Translations under genes and position numbers: made by a program | Source of the DNA: a bacterium | Lineage (GTDB): Bacteria > B130-G9 | Direction: 5' to 3' | Assembly (NCBI GenBank): GCA_021160245.1 | Contig: JAGHCW010000139.1 | Location: forward strand, 1 to 5,436 | Length of the DNA: 5,436 nucleotides | The notes under the pieces: generated by a model | What the model was told of the DNA's origin: nothing | Database searches by the model: none | The model's input: only the letters and a program-made list of their open reading frames with translations | Shown: positions 579-5,436 of the stretch, in pieces | How positions within the stretch are numbered: position 1 is the first letter of the stretch | How the letters are laid out: each line of letters opens with the position of its first letter

Positions 579-615
579 CTTGACAGTGTTCCCATTCTTC
601 TGGCATGATGTCAAG
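579..615 (+). promoter_or_regulatory. Sigma70-type extended -10 promoter of cassette, within an inverted repeat
   Basis: A perfect TTGACA (580-585) is followed after 18 nt by CATGAT (604-609), preceded by TGG to give an extended -10. Transcription should start near 616. The same two boxes at the same 18-nt spacing occur in the next unit (3572-3601), although the spacer sequence between them differs. The -35 box also forms an inverted repeat, CTTGACA (579-585) with TGTCAAG (609-615), which might be an operator. In the second unit only TGACA/TGTCA is kept. No other good promoter is seen before the small gene, so the predicted mRNA has a leader of about 385 nt. Confidence 0.55.
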
Positions 616-640
616 AATGAACTACAAAAGCCAATGTTGT

Positions 641-657
641 CGCGCTGAACGGGCGCG
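641..657 (+). other. Conserved GC hairpin at the start of the leader
   Basis: CGCGC (641-645) pairs with GCGCG (653-657), with one more T-G pair (646/652) around a 5-nt loop. In the other unit the same place holds a stem whose differing pairs stay compatible: T-G at 646/652 becomes C-G, and the outer C-G at 641/657 becomes T-G. The loop bases differ. Two pairing-preserving changes suggest that the RNA structure matters. It lies directly upstream of an identical stretch (GGCAAACC then GGAGGGG) that carries a ribosome binding site. Confidence 0.4.
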
Positions 658-753
658 GCAAACCCGGAGGGGATTGTGATGAACATCCTCGTATTACGCG
701 GCAATCGTCCTTGCCCTGACGAGCCGGCCTTCCGAGCCGTCTCAGCCCTGGTT

Positions 754-764
754 GGGGGGGGGGG
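754..764 (+). repeat. Homopolymer of 11 G in the leader
   Basis: Eleven consecutive G lie in the middle of the leader reading frame. The equivalent position in the other unit holds ten G, flanked by different bases. Such tracts are prone to slippage, which would change the reading frame of anything translated through them. Tracts of this length are also hard to sequence and assemble, so the exact count may be unreliable. Confidence 0.85.
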
Positions 765-819
765 AGCCTACATGGAAAGACCAGAGCGGCGAATCGGCGA
801 GCTTTTTCAGCTTCGTTTT

Positions 820-934
820 TGTTTCCAACCCCAACTTCTCTCTGCTCTGAGCGGGAAGAGGACCCGTGGAATCGTCAGACCACGAGGCCCTCCTATCATT
901 CCCGCAAGCCATTCTTTCGAATGGCGCCAAGTGT
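820..934 (+). ncRNA. Candidate structured RNA element in the leader (two adjacent helices)
   Basis: This 115-nt block matches 3819-3933 at all but one base (858), whereas sequence on both sides differs much more. It holds a nested stem: GCGGGAA (851-857) with TTCCCGC (899-905), AGGA (859-862) with TCCT (891-894), and CGTGG (865-869) with CCACG (880-884) around a 10-nt loop. After two bases (AA) comes a perfect 7-bp hairpin: GCCATTC (908-914), loop TTTC, GAATGGC (919-925). No U tract follows, so it is not a standard terminator. It ends about 65 nt before the small gene's start and could be a cis-regulatory RNA, RNA processing site or DNA recombination site. I do not recognise it as a known riboswitch class. 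The identity itself is observed; the RNA role is inferred. Confidence 0.42.
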
Positions 935-1001
935 GAGATAAGTGTCGCATTTGAGAGAAAATATACAACACATTTCGTTTTGAACATGAAAAGGAGTAAG
1001 A

Positions 1002-1364
1002 ATGAGACGACATACGACAATACTATTGTCTACGGGTATCATCGCAACTCTGGCGATTCTCGCTTTCGCCGGCTACTTCACGTCGGAGGGTTGGGTTTAT
1101 CCAACTAGCGGACCTGCAGACATGCAGCTGTTCAAGTATGAGATTCACTACAGTCTGGCTGAGGAGCAGGATGCACCATATGCCTACGTCAGGATTTGGG
1201 ATGGTGAGGACCTGATCCACTACGAGATGATGGTTGTCACGACTCTTGACCGGGTTGCGTACTACACGTACCAGACAGGTCTTGATGAAGGGGACGATTA
1301 TTCGTTCCAATTCGAGACCGTTGATGACATCACACCCGTGGCCTTCGGACCTGACGTATGGTGA
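1002..1364 (+). CDS. Small exported Ig-like single-domain protein (unit 1)
   Basis: This encodes 120 aa, with AAGGAG (991-996) 5 nt before the ATG. Residues 1-23 are a signal peptide or signal anchor: Arg2-Arg3, a hydrophobic core at about 7-22, and a possible cleavage after AFA (21-23). The rest resembles single Ig-like/fibronectin-like beta-sandwich domains of secreted bacterial proteins. Supporting positions are GWVYPTSG (30-37), an aromatic YEIHY strand (46-50), Asp57-Ala-Pro59, IWDG (65-68), Met76-Met77, YYTY (87-90), L-DEGD (94-98), YSFQF (100-104) and the end FGPDVW. It has no cysteine and no lipobox. The homologue at 4001-4363 has the same length. The first 40 residues are mostly identical, while the rest is about 40% identical by eye. 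It lies 145 nt upstream of the propeller gene and is probably co-transcribed with it. The partner and ligand are unknown. Confidence 0.85.
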   Translation: MRRHTTILLSTGIIATLAILAFAGYFTSEGWVYPTSGPADMQLFKYEIHYSLAEEQDAPYAYVRIWDGEDLIHYEMMVVTTLDRVAYYTYQTGLDEGDDYSFQFETVDDITPVAFGPDVW

Positions 1365-1447: not shown

Positions 1448-1496
1448 GCCGTCCACATTAAGATGATTATAGGATGAAGACAATGGATACTGAAGC

Positions 1497-1502
1497 AAGG
1501 AG
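1497..1502 (+). promoter_or_regulatory. Ribosome binding site fixing the large-gene start at 1510
   Basis: AAGGAG lies 7 nt before ATG 1510. An in-frame ATG at 1474 would give 12 extra residues (MKTMDTEARRSE) before the signal peptide and has only a weak AGG near it. The next unit shows the same arrangement, with AGGGAG 7 nt before ATG 4483, and its product aligns from MR onward. Confidence 0.75.
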
Positions 1503-1509
1503 AAGTGAA

Positions 1510-3510
1510 ATGCGGTATGGAATCATAGTTCTGTCGTTTACATTGGTGTTTGGGATGGCTTTCTCGGCTGAGGCGGCCTCGTTCTGGCCGATGTTCCAGC
1601 GGGACCTCGGCCACACGGGTCTCGCGCCGGTTTCAACGCCGGAGAATCTTCAATTGATGTGGGAGGTGGACATAGCGACTGTGAGCCCGAGAGATTTCTC
1701 ACATCTGGTGATGGGTAATGACGGGTGTGTTTGGGCAGTCGGGACGAAGATACTGGCGGTTTCTCCTGATGGTCAAGTCAATGTCGAGTTTCGCTTTCCG
1801 TCTGATCTAGCGGGGTCCTTCAAGGGCGACCTGGCGCCTGTCGTTCTCGGCGACGGCGCGCTGGTTGTTCTGGCGCACGTTCGAGTCGAGGGCCAATTCA
1901 TACCCCACTTGTTTGCCATTGAGCCCTGGGGTGAGCTGCGCTGGACGCTCCCTCTTGAAGGTCGCGCCGGACTTTCTCTGCTCACCTTGGGGCCTCAGGG
2001 CTCTATTTACGCCGCTTCGGAAAACTACCTATACAAAGTATCCGAAGAGCCGCAAATTCAGTGGTCTTACCAATGTGACACTGAGATAAGTACCGTCCCC
2101 GCGGTCGCGGCGGATGGCTCAATATACTTCGGGGCCAAGGGCGACATACTCTATTGCCTCTCTCCCGAAGGGTCGCTTAACTGGACCTTAGAAAATATGT
2201 GGTTGCTCGGGGCGCCGACTGTTGATGCGGACGGGAGGGTCTATATCGCGACGACAAGCGATGCGTTGTATTGCCTGAACAGCGACGGTTCTGTCCAGTG
2301 GTCCTATCCGAATTCGGGAACCTCCTATACAAGCCCAGTGTTGCTCCCCGATGGCTCAGTGGTCTTCAACGGAGCCAAAGAGATGTACGGCAATTCGATA
2401 ATATGCGTTGACAGCAGCGGCGCAGAGAAATGGGCGCTTAGTATCGATTCGAACCAGAAGCCGCTGGCAAGCCCAGTTGCGGACGCGGACGGCAATGTTT
2501 ATATAGGATATTACTTGTACGAGGGCGAGCCACCCAACTATGTCTATCATCGACGCCTGGCTCGCATCAGCCCAACAGGCTCGTATGAGGAGTTCTATGT
2601 CGATTCGAGGGGAACCAAGACGAATGTAGGGGGATTCTGCATAGGGGGAAATGGTATGTTATACGCCCATAATGGCAACCTGCTCTGCGCCTTCGGAGCG
2701 GCCATAGAATCGCCAAACCTGAGTGTCTCTACACGGCTTTCATCCTTTGACATGGATATCGGCTGGCTCCGTGCGACATCGATTCATCTCGCCAACCCTC
2801 TTTCCGATATGGATGCCGACTGCTACATCGCCTATCGGAGAAAGGGAAGCGAGGAGTTGTTCTTCTACCCGTTTTGGTCAAACGAGCCATCGGGCAGTGC
2901 TTTGGAGTTCAGGCCACTGTCAGCCGGCGCCGAATTCCCCAAGATCGAGCTGATACATACTGAGGAGCGCACACTTGTGCCGGGGGAATACGAATATTTT
3001 GCCGGACTCTTCGAGCCGGGGACACTCAACCCCCTGTTGGATATAGCCTCATGTGAGTTCACCGTATATGCACAGCCCATTCGAGGGCAAAGCCACTCTC
3101 GTAGTCAGCAGATAGCTGTTATTGAGCCATCGCTAGATGAGACGCAGCTGATGGTTCAACTCTGGACAGACAAGCATGATTACACGGCGGGCGAGACGCT
3201 TAATCTCTCACTCAGCTTTGATAATCAGGGCTTTGGAATGCCATTTGACTTCTACATCGCGGCGAGGCTGGATGCAGACCCTACTGGGACGCTCTTCTTC
3301 TTCCCGACCTGGGCGACCGATCCGAGTTTCTCGAACATATCCTTTCTGCCACTTGTGCAGGGCACCCTTCTGCCAGATCTGACGATCATGCATCTTGAGC
3401 TTCCGGACTCGCTTCCAAAAGGTGATTACACCTTCCTGGCGGCCTTTTTCGTCTCGGGCAGGTTCGATCTCGCAAGCGAGATCGCTGAGTCGCACTGGAC
3501 GCTGATGTAG
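1510..3510 (+). CDS. Large exported protein: PQQ-like beta-propeller plus two C-terminal beta-sandwich domains (unit 1, complete)
   Basis: The chosen ATG gives 666 aa; ATG 1474 would give 678. Residues 1-22 or 1-23 are a signal peptide (core IIVLSFTLVFGM, cleavage near AEA). The mature N-terminus has SFWPMFQRDLGHTG (24-37), typical of PQQ-like/BamB-type propeller proteins. Eight propeller repeats follow at about 66-95, 112-150, 158-190, 196-227, 235-266, 274-311, 321-365 and 373-397, each built like DADGRVYIATTSDALYCLNS. Domain A (about 402-520) and domain B (about 545-666) are related to each other: both have YIA, an FFYPFW or FFFPTW motif, an H-x-E strand and a GEY/GDY-x-F-x-A turn before the last strand. 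A linker (521-544) separates them. There is no C-terminal anchor or secretion tag. PQQ-like repeats need not bind PQQ, and no catalytic or haem-binding motif is visible, so an enzymatic role is not supported. It is probably extracytoplasmic and may act in binding or scaffolding. Confidence 0.9.
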   Translation: MRYGIIVLSFTLVFGMAFSAEAASFWPMFQRDLGHTGLAPVSTPENLQLMWEVDIATVSPRDFSHLVMGNDGCVWAVGTKILAVSPDGQVNVEFRFPSDLAGSFKGDLAPVVLGDGALVVLAHVRVEGQFIPHLFAIEPWGELRWTLPLEGRAGLSLLTLGPQGSIYAASENYLYKVSEEPQIQWSYQCDTEISTVPAVAADGSIYFGAKGDILYCLSPEGSLNWTLENMWLLGAPTVDADGRVYIATTSDALYCLNSDGSVQWSYPNSGTSYTSPVLLPDGSVVFNGAKEMYGNSIICVDSSGAEKWALSIDSNQKPLASPVADADGNVYIGYYLYEGEPPNYVYHRRLARISPTGSYEEFYVDSRGTKTNVGGFCIGGNGMLYAHNGNLLCAFGAAIESPNLSVSTRLSSFDMDIGWLRATSIHLANPLSDMDADCYIAYRRKGSEELFFYPFWSNEPSGSALEFRPLSAGAEFPKIELIHTEERTLVPGEYEYFAGLFEPGTLNPLLDIASCEFTVYAQPIRGQSHSRSQQIAVIEPSLDETQLMVQLWTDKHDYTAGETLNLSLSFDNQGFGMPFDFYIAARLDADPTGTLFFFPTWATDPSFSNISFLPLVQGTLLPDLTIMHLELPDSLPKGDYTFLAAFFVSGRFDLASEIAESHWTLM

Positions 3511-3570: not shown

Positions 3571-3605
3571 CTTGACAGCGTTCGTAGTCTTCTGGCATGA
3601 TGTCA
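3571..3605 (+). promoter_or_regulatory. Sigma70-type extended -10 promoter of the next cassette
   Basis: TTGACA (3572-3577), an 18-nt spacer, then CATGAT (3596-3601) preceded by TGG. The boxes are the same as in the first unit although the first ten or so spacer bases differ, which supports real promoter function. It lies 61 nt after the stop of the large gene, so each cassette seems to have its own promoter. No convincing intrinsic terminator lies between stop and promoter, so read-through from the previous unit is possible. Confidence 0.55.
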
Positions 3606-3750: not shown

Positions 3751-3760
3751 GGGGGGGGGG
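3751..3760 (+). repeat. Homopolymer of 10 G in the leader
   Basis: Ten consecutive G stand at the position of the eleven-G run 754-764. The bases on each side differ (TTTTAC before, CGCAGG after), so the run itself is conserved better than its surroundings or has re-expanded independently. Confidence 0.85.
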
Positions 3761-3818: not shown

Positions 3819-3933
3819 TGTTTCCAACCCCAACTTCTCTCTGCTCTGAGCGGGAAAAGGACCCGTGGAATCGTCAGACCACGAGGCCCTCCTATCATTC
3901 CCGCAAGCCATTCTTTCGAATGGCGCCAAGTGT
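3819..3933 (+). ncRNA. Candidate structured RNA element in the leader (unit 2)
   Basis: Second copy of the block at 820-934, with a single difference (A at 3857). The helices are GCGGGAA (3850-3856) with TTCCCGC (3898-3904), and GCCATTC (3907-3913), loop TTTC, GAATGGC (3918-3924). It ends about 65 nt before the start codon of the second small gene, the same distance as in the first unit. Confidence 0.42.
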
Positions 3934-4000: not shown

Positions 4001-4363
4001 ATGAGACGATATACGACAATATTATTGGCTACAGGTATGATCGCAGCGCTGGTGATTCTCGCGTTCGCCGGCTACTTCACGTCGAATGGTTGGGTTGCTC
4101 CAACTAGCGGTGATGCTGACGAGACCTGGTTCACGTGGGAGATTCACTACGCCCTGGCTGAGGACGAAGATGTGCCAGCGTGCTTCTTGAAGATACATAA
4201 CGGAGAAGTACAAATCGGCTCCTATATGATGCAAGCAGCCACTTTCGACAGAGTTGCCGTTTACACTTACAGCAGGCAATTGCCAGAGGGTGACTTGTAC
4301 AACTTCCACTTCTGTGTAGATGACGATACATCGCTTGTAACTTTCGGGCCCTTAGTCGAGTAG
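4001..4363 (+). CDS. Small exported Ig-like single-domain protein (unit 2)
   Basis: This encodes 120 aa; AAGGAG (3990-3995) lies 5 nt before the ATG. The signal sequence is nearly the same as in the first copy (TTILL, then LAFAGYFTS), with probable cleavage after AFA (21-23). The domain shows the expected landmarks of an Ig-like fold in secreted bacterial proteins: GWVAPTSGDAD (30-40), WEIHY (46-50), D-V-P at 57-59, a Met pair near 76-77, a YTY strand, L-PEGD, YNFHF, DDD and a FGP end. Unlike copy 1 it has two cysteines, in PACF and HFCVDD. From residue 40 on, identity to copy 1 is only about 40% by eye, while length and strand spacing are unchanged. The large propeller gene starts 119 nt downstream. 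The function is unknown; a secreted companion of the propeller protein is inferred from the repeated pairing. Confidence 0.85.
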   Translation: MRRYTTILLATGMIAALVILAFAGYFTSNGWVAPTSGDADETWFTWEIHYALAEDEDVPACFLKIHNGEVQIGSYMMQAATFDRVAVYTYSRQLPEGDLYNFHFCVDDDTSLVTFGPLVE

Positions 4364-4419: not shown

Positions 4420-4469
4420 GCGGTATCCGATTTCAGTGAATAAGAGAGAAACCGACTCAAAAGAATGAG

Positions 4470-4475
4470 AGGGAG
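4470..4475 (+). promoter_or_regulatory. Ribosome binding site fixing the large-gene start at 4483
   Basis: AGGGAG lies 7 nt before ATG 4483. In-frame ATGs at 4465 and 4477 are less likely: the second is only 1 nt from this site and the first precedes it. The spacing matches the site before ATG 1510. Confidence 0.7.
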
Positions 4476-4482
4476 TATGAAG

Positions 4483-5436
4483 ATGCGTGTTTGCACAACA
4501 ATTCTGTCCTTGTTGCTGGTTGTTTTTCTATTTGGCTCTGCATCCGCGGAGTCATTCTGGCCTATGTTCCAGCAGAATCCGGGGCACACGGGCGTGGCGC
4601 CGGTCTCAACGGCTCCGGAGCTTGAGCTATTGTGGGGTACGAATGGAAGCACAGACTCCAGTTCACATCTGGTTCTCGGCAGCGACGGGAGTTTGTGGGC
4701 AGTTGGCGACAATGTTGATAGATTATCTCCCCGAGGTGAGGTCATTTTTCACATAACTCCCTCGGACGTTGGAATCATGGGATCGTTTAAGGGCCAAGGT
4801 TCGCCGGCCGTTCTTGCCGATGGAACTCTCATTGTGATGGCAGGAGTTCGCAATGAGGACAAGTTGTTTGTCCCCACGCTATATGCCATTGAGCCGAACG
4901 AGAATGTCCGTTGGACGCTTCCATTTGAGGAACAGGCACCGGCGAACTCTCTGATCACTCTTGCGTCTGACGGGCAGATATATGTGGGTTGTCCCACCTG
5001 TCTGTACTCAGTCACGCAGGAAGGCGGCATTACATGGTCCTACGATTGCGACGATCAGATCGAGACCATACCGGCCGTGGCGAATGACGGTAGCGTCTAT
5101 TTTGGGACAAGGAACAGCACTCTCTATTGCCTGAGCCCTGACGGGCTTCTCGATTGGACCTTCCGGCCGGAAGGCACAGCTTCATGGATACAGTCTGCGC
5201 CCACGCTCGATCACAACGAACGCGTGTATTTCACTGTCTCAAGCAATGGCCTCTATTGCCTGAACAGTGATGGCTCGGTTGAGTTCTCGTACCCAATCCA
5301 GAAATCCTGCTATACAAGCCCCATTCTGATGCCGGATGGCTCCATTGCCTTCTACGAAAGGGCAGAAGCGGGCCCGCAGATCACGCGCCTCAATGCCGAC
5401 GGCTCCAAGAGATGGGCCACGCCATTGCCAACAAGC
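4483..5436 (+). CDS. N-terminal part of a large exported PQQ-like propeller protein (unit 2, 3' end outside window)
   Basis: The frame is open from ATG 4483 to the last base, giving 318 codons without a stop. Residues 1-22 form a signal peptide (core ILSLLLVVFLFG, cleavage after SASA), followed by SFWPMFQQNPGHTG at 24-37, the same positions as in the complete protein. Propeller repeats follow, for example LGSDGSLWAVGD, NDGSVYFGTRNSTLYCLSPDG and SSNGLYCLNSDGSVEFSYP. The window ends inside the sixth repeat, after TPLPTS. By eye the shared part is about 50% identical to 1510-3510, with short indels in loops and strong conservation of the SFKG segment, the LYCL strands and YTSP. The two C-terminal beta-sandwich domains are expected downstream but are not in the window. 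Function as for the complete homologue: exported, non-enzymatic on visible evidence, otherwise unknown. Confidence 0.88.
   Translation, partial: MRVCTTILSLLLVVFLFGSASAESFWPMFQQNPGHTGVAPVSTAPELELLWGTNGSTDSSSHLVLGSDGSLWAVGDNVDRLSPRGEVIFHITPSDVGIMGSFKGQGSPAVLADGTLIVMAGVRNEDKLFVPTLYAIEPNENVRWTLPFEEQAPANSLITLASDGQIYVGCPTCLYSVTQEGGITWSYDCDDQIETIPAVANDGSVYFGTRNSTLYCLSPDGLLDWTFRPEGTASWIQSAPTLDHNERVYFTVSSNGLYCLNSDGSVEFSYPIQKSCYTSPILMPDGSIAFYERAEAGPQITRLNADGSKRWATPLPTS

Follow-up and report, generated by a model that had tools for sequence, protein, structure and literature searches.

A conserved double-hairpin element, probably regulatory, in the leaders of a paralogous operon family from an uncultured bacterial lineage

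The stretch of DNA analyzed here (the window, 5,436 nucleotides) is one whole short contig, C201, of a genome that was assembled in 244 contigs (G000). One unit is complete; the end of another precedes it, and the start of a further one follows. Each unit consists of a leader with a sigma70-like promoter, a gene for a 120-aa protein, and a gene for a 678-aa PQQ-type beta-propeller protein, and the family of operons formed by these units encodes probable exported proteins of an uncultured bacterial lineage. The features of the window relevant to our analysis are as follows.

580 to 609, forward strand: sigma70-like promoter at the head of the leader, TTGACA-18-CATGAT with an extended -10, 10 of 12 consensus matches
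610 to 1001, forward strand: 5' leader of the unit-1 operon, about 390 nt; the four copies in the genome are 86-88% identical over about 500 nt
754 to 764, forward strand: poly-G tract within the leader, 11 G
851 to 905, forward strand: hairpin 1, a nested stem of 7+4+2+5 bp, from folding and copy comparison
908 to 925, forward strand: hairpin 2, 7 bp (908-914/919-925) with a TTTC loop, from folding and copy comparison
992 to 996, forward strand: Shine-Dalgarno sequence AGGAG of the small gene, offset by 115 from the AGACC at 877
1002 to 1364, forward strand: small gene, 120 aa, with a hydrophobic N-terminus (signal peptide or anchor)
1474 to 3510, forward strand: gene for the PQQ-type beta-propeller protein, 678 aa, with an N-terminal signal-like sequence
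3572 to 3601, forward strand: promoter-like site of the second unit, equivalent of 580 to 609
3751 to 3760, forward strand: poly-G tract of the second unit, 10 G
3850 to 3904, forward strand: hairpin 1 of the second unit
3907 to 3924, forward strand: hairpin 2 of the second unit
4001 to 4363, forward strand: small gene of the second unit, encoding a protein 58% identical to the unit-1 small protein
4465 to 5436, forward strand: second-unit propeller gene, incomplete because the contig ends within it

The 120-aa protein matched no family in Pfam or NCBIfam, and a protein-based search of GTDB genomes with the propeller gene gave no match. Stretches resembling the small protein occur within giant open frames of about 2300-6000 aa (L046, L038, L039) in three related genomes, with E values of 5e-5 to 0.002. 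The genome carries four leader copies, two in the window and one each on contigs C120 and C202. On C120, genes for an Lrp-type regulator and an aminotransferase precede the leader, and on C202 unrelated genes come after the last unit; these two contigs therefore probably represent the left-hand and right-hand ends of a single tandem array split by assembly. An Lrp-type regulator gene lies beside the operon family in three genera (L006, L098 and L100, from G000, G001 and G002).

An earlier note on this DNA had singled out a 115-nt leader block at 820-934 as nearly identical between units and able to fold into two adjacent helices. Both observations hold. The block differs from its counterpart at 3819-3933 at a single one of its 115 bases (858 G, 3857 A), and the two hairpins were recovered in the places first given for them. 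Hairpin 1 is made up of stems at 851-857/899-905 (7 bp), 858-861/889-892 (4 bp) and 865-869/880-884 (5 bp), to which we add a 2-bp stem at 863-864/886-887 that was missing from the original description. The folded 115-nt block has an energy of -38.6 kcal/mol (z -2.95), and for an 82-nt core z falls to -5.4, with none of 400 shuffles as stable.

Nine copies of the element were found in total: four in G000 and five in G001, a genome of the same family and a different genus. All eight full copies (8 of the 9) fold with z values of -4.1 to -6.5 relative to shuffles. The 3' strand of hairpin 1, the 17-nt sequence AGACCACGAGGCCCTCC at 877-893, is identical in 8 of 9 copies. In one copy, L012, the 5' strand of hairpin 1 is gone and the fold has z -0.67, but the strand AGACCACGAGGCCCTCC is retained. 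The earlier note had named covarying helix positions as the sign of an RNA, and this sign is only weakly present. A compensatory change between the genera was found in hairpin 2 (C-G to U-A in three copies, 1 of 26 pairs), and another affects an optional outer pair of hairpin 1 in G001, but the compensatory counts do not exceed those of shuffles and the pairing measures are not clearly above them (43/500). The copies are too few and too similar to give real covariation support. Overall, the structure of the core is well supported by energy and conservation and poorly supported by covariation.

A DNA search of 60 genomes returned G001 as the sole other genome with matches. Its five matches, at 77-84% identity and with E values down to 1e-15, are confined to the hairpin region (about 842-949 of the window); between the genera, only the core of about 75 nt (851-925) aligns well, and the remaining leader aligns poorly. 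All nine copies precede the same operon family in the same orientation. The usual operon order is the 120-aa exported protein followed by the beta-propeller protein; the L012 operon lacks the small gene, and there the propeller gene is the first gene after the element, with the spacing unchanged. Counted from AGACC, the Shine-Dalgarno sequence comes 110-115 nt downstream in eight of the nine copies and 129 nt downstream in L009. A third genus, represented by G002, has the propeller gene with a promoter-like site and a long leader, without the core and without the small gene; the operon can therefore do without the core. A further copy of the small gene in G001 (L044, G001:C141:1265-1609) has a leader with a promoter-like site, a 5' hairpin and a poly-G tract but no hairpin core, and the gene downstream of it differs, carrying a Big_5 Ig-like domain.

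A covariance model built from eight copies was searched against the four genomes of the phylum and 286 genomes outside it. All nine copies were recovered, L012 only at E 0.22. Nothing else in the four genomes was convincing, a match at G002:C198 (E 0.49) being taken as chance, and the 286 outside genomes gave no match. Exact-pattern scans of GTDB species genomes and IMG/VR viral contigs, collections from which near relatives may be missing, were empty. Rfam gave three hits in the window, all at chance level (E of 1 or more) and far below the gathering score, which bears out the initial remark that the block matches no known riboswitch class, and a literature search found nothing on point. A dispersed palindromic repeat of the REP/MITE type was rejected, as the copies in G000 and G001 are only operon-linked. 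The element is thus real, conserved, folded and absent from Rfam, and its copies known to date come from two genera of a single small phylum.

The core is less variable than the sequence around it. Between the window units, 1 of 75 core sites varies, compared with 40 of 333 in the rest of the leader (Fisher p 0.0017). Among the four G000 copies the counts are 6/75 for the core and 84/330 for the flank (p 0.00038), with five of the six core changes falling in loops, and among four G001 copies they are 9/75 and 147/366 (p 7e-7). When three G001 copies only are used, the flank has 92 variable sites out of 443 and p is 0.048. The earlier note's description of noncoding sequence more conserved than the neighboring genes needs one correction: the stretch of high identity also takes in coding sequence.

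That stretch raises the question of homogenization between units. Identity is high over window positions of about 1-1080 and drops to 42-70% beyond. This zone of about 1.1 kb comprises the 3' third of the propeller gene, the intergenic sequence, the leader and the signal peptide of the small gene, and it has two peaks of 98% identity, one at the hairpin core and one at 661-720. Synonymous divergence is 0.51 for the propeller C-termini (u0/u1; 0.42 for the last 111 codons) and 0.21 for the first 27 codons of the small gene, compared with 1.75 for the rest of the small gene and 1.9 for the N-terminal part of the propeller gene. With synonymous divergence at 0.2-0.5 in the coding sequence on either side of the leader and at 1.75-1.9 in the other coding parts, the zone has the reduced divergence of a gene-conversion tract, and we conclude that gene conversion or unequal exchange homogenized the zone. 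The near-identity of the two window blocks is partly due to this process. Given that the high identity runs continuously through coding sequence and that synonymous divergence is low on both sides, the block could be merely the most recently homogenized part of a tandem array, a product of gene conversion or unequal crossing over that has no function of its own. We regard this as quite unlikely, because it fails to account for the core identity of about 80% with copies from another genus whose leaders otherwise hardly align, for the spacing, and for the smaller number of changes in the core than in its flanks inside the homogenized zone itself. As a full explanation, homogenization is largely refuted by the G001 copies. 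Of the three options raised at the outset (a cis-acting RNA, a recombination site or gene conversion), a functional structured element is favored by the five G001 copies, and homogenization explains part of the near-identity.

About 240 nt separate the element from the promoter-like site upstream of it, and about 110 nt separate it from the Shine-Dalgarno sequence that follows. By sequence matches, a promoter-like site is present ahead of the leader in both window units and in every G001 copy checked; those at leaders L008 and L009 and at the L011 locus have 10-11 of 12 consensus matches. No terminator-like site (a GC-rich hairpin followed by a T run) was found within 480-1480, and a transcription attenuator with an intrinsic terminator was rejected for this reason. 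Sequestration of the Shine-Dalgarno sequence is likewise not supported, since the free fold of every copy shows almost no pairing of CCUCC with AGGAG; such pairing is strong only in L008 and L011 when the 5' strand is blocked.

The double-hairpin stretch is probably a new, lineage-specific regulatory element because conservation between the two genera is seen in the core and does not extend to the leader around it, and it is most likely an RNA. In the reading that we prefer, and to which we give slightly better than an even chance, the block contains the core of a structured cis-acting leader element, two adjacent hairpins of about 75 nt that lie toward the 3' end of the roughly 390-nt 5' leader, before each operon of the paralogous family. 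Such an element would act as RNA on the operon's own mRNA. A trans-acting factor, either a protein or an RNA, would most likely bind it through the invariant strand AGACCACGAGGCCCTCC, and binding may set the translation or mRNA stability of all paralogues together. Against this reading, L012 keeps this strand without its partner, as expected of a site recognized by sequence rather than by structure, and the G002 leader lacks the core. We favor the sense leader as the active molecule because of the position of the element, the promoter and the near-fixed spacing.

A function as sense-strand RNA is not assured, since the antisense strand keeps more pairs and has the stronger fold. Of the cells for the same 26 pairs, 96.6% remain paired when read antisense and 92.3% when read sense (7 versus 16 broken cells), because most sense A-C mismatches become G-U pairs on the opposite strand. 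The consensus fold is -42.5 kcal/mol with z -9.1 for antisense and -30.7 kcal/mol with z -6.5 against column shuffles for sense, and folding energy is lower on the antisense strand in every copy. These differences could be explained by a structured RNA transcribed from the opposite strand, with each leader giving rise to one member of an antisense RNA family whose members pair with or titrate all of the paralogue leaders. We consider such a family unlikely, given that the opposite strand ahead of the element has no consensus promoter in any copy (the best sites have 7-8 of 12 matches, at no constant position) and that the wobble bias, which rests on about six events versus two or three and is a hint only, could have arisen by chance. 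Marginally less likely again is the extended proposal that each leader encodes a small structured RNA on its opposite strand, so that the whole family of paralogous exported-protein operons carries antisense RNAs of its own, through which the array can be cross-regulated. About as unlikely as the antisense family is a role for the core as a DNA site, either an operator for a regulator such as the adjacent Lrp-type protein or an anchor for recombination or conversion, with inverted repeats that show as RNA hairpins. The 17-nt strand AGACCACGAGGCCCTCC survives even in L012, which no longer has hairpin 1, and the Lrp-type gene adjoins the array in G000 and G001 as well as the G002 homologue, as this reading would have it. 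Yet the distances from the promoter-like site and the Shine-Dalgarno sequence put the core in an unusual place for an operator, two hairpins with internal loops form no simple operator palindrome, and the Lrp neighbor is present also in G002, which does not have the core.

The poly-G tract and the short upstream ORF would allow one more mechanism. A run of 7-11 G is present in eight of the nine leaders and absent from L009, and it could be a slippage tract. In both genera's leaders the run is often followed by GCAG, though its surroundings hardly align (L004 1342; on the reverse strand, L008 1671, L010 1667, L011 886 and L044 1764). The G000 copies have a good Shine-Dalgarno sequence and an ATG just upstream of 680. 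In u1, u2 and c120, the frame of this short ORF crosses both hairpins and stops just after hairpin 2, and removal of one G would place the stop right before hairpin 1. A leader-peptide attenuator would use these features: ribosomes translating the short ORF at 679 would enter the hairpins or pass through them, downstream expression would depend on where this ORF ends (before 851 or after 925), and poly-G slippage would switch the operon on or off. We judge this mechanism very unlikely. The frames of c202, L008 and L011 end elsewhere, no terminator was found, and one leader has no poly-G tract. Homopolymer lengths in metagenome assemblies are uncertain, and the genome shows no excess of runs of at least 9 G (about 15 sites versus about 38 expected for random sequence of the same GC). 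Moreover, dN and dS are about equal, in both genera, for the single long ORF upstream. On this ground, and because the frame through the hairpins is not kept across copies, a protein-coding explanation was rejected; a protein-coding match in one frame, which the earlier note had named as a refutation, was looked for and not found.

Poly-G tracts occur elsewhere in these genomes in other settings. In G001, the promoters of two similar genes (L109 at about 1034 and L110 at about 1071, both reverse strand; C66 and C86) have 11 and 9 G between TTGACA and TAGAAT, where the spacers measure about 17 and 19 nt; phase-variable promoters are laid out in this way. In G000, two near-identical genes (L070 at 279 and L108 at 1088, the latter on the reverse strand; C13 and C236) carry runs of 11 and 10 G immediately behind a start that resembles a signal peptide, an arrangement found in phase-variable coding sequences.

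Compared with known systems, the element read as a leader RNA resembles in layout the structured 5'-leader cis-regulatory RNAs of bacteria, with a promoter-like site upstream, a folded core before one gene family, and a core conserved above the rest of the leader; it differs from them in having neither an Rfam match nor real covariation support. Leaders of the E. coli ompA type carry 5' stem-loops that stabilize mRNAs for abundant exported proteins. Stable hairpins in the long leader of an exported-protein gene are common to both, but the hairpins described here lie about 240 nt from the predicted 5' end and are conserved in sequence on one strand. As with antisense RNAs opposite leaders, the opposite strand folds better here and keeps its pairs through G-U, but no promoter was found on it. 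Tandem arrays of surface-protein paralogues with homogenized flanks likewise combine diverged gene bodies with a conserved 3' end, leader and signal peptide, whereas the core described here is conserved beyond the array and beyond the genus. The element would thus belong to a known kind, that of structured leader elements.

If the preferred reading is correct, the double hairpin would represent an RNA family not described before, with all members known to date in one small uncultured phylum. It would link how the members of an expanding exported-protein family are expressed; the bodies of these proteins diverge, whereas their control region and ends stay alike. It would also provide a clean case for separating functional conservation from homogenization in tandem arrays and a handle on the regulation of surface proteins in such lineages.
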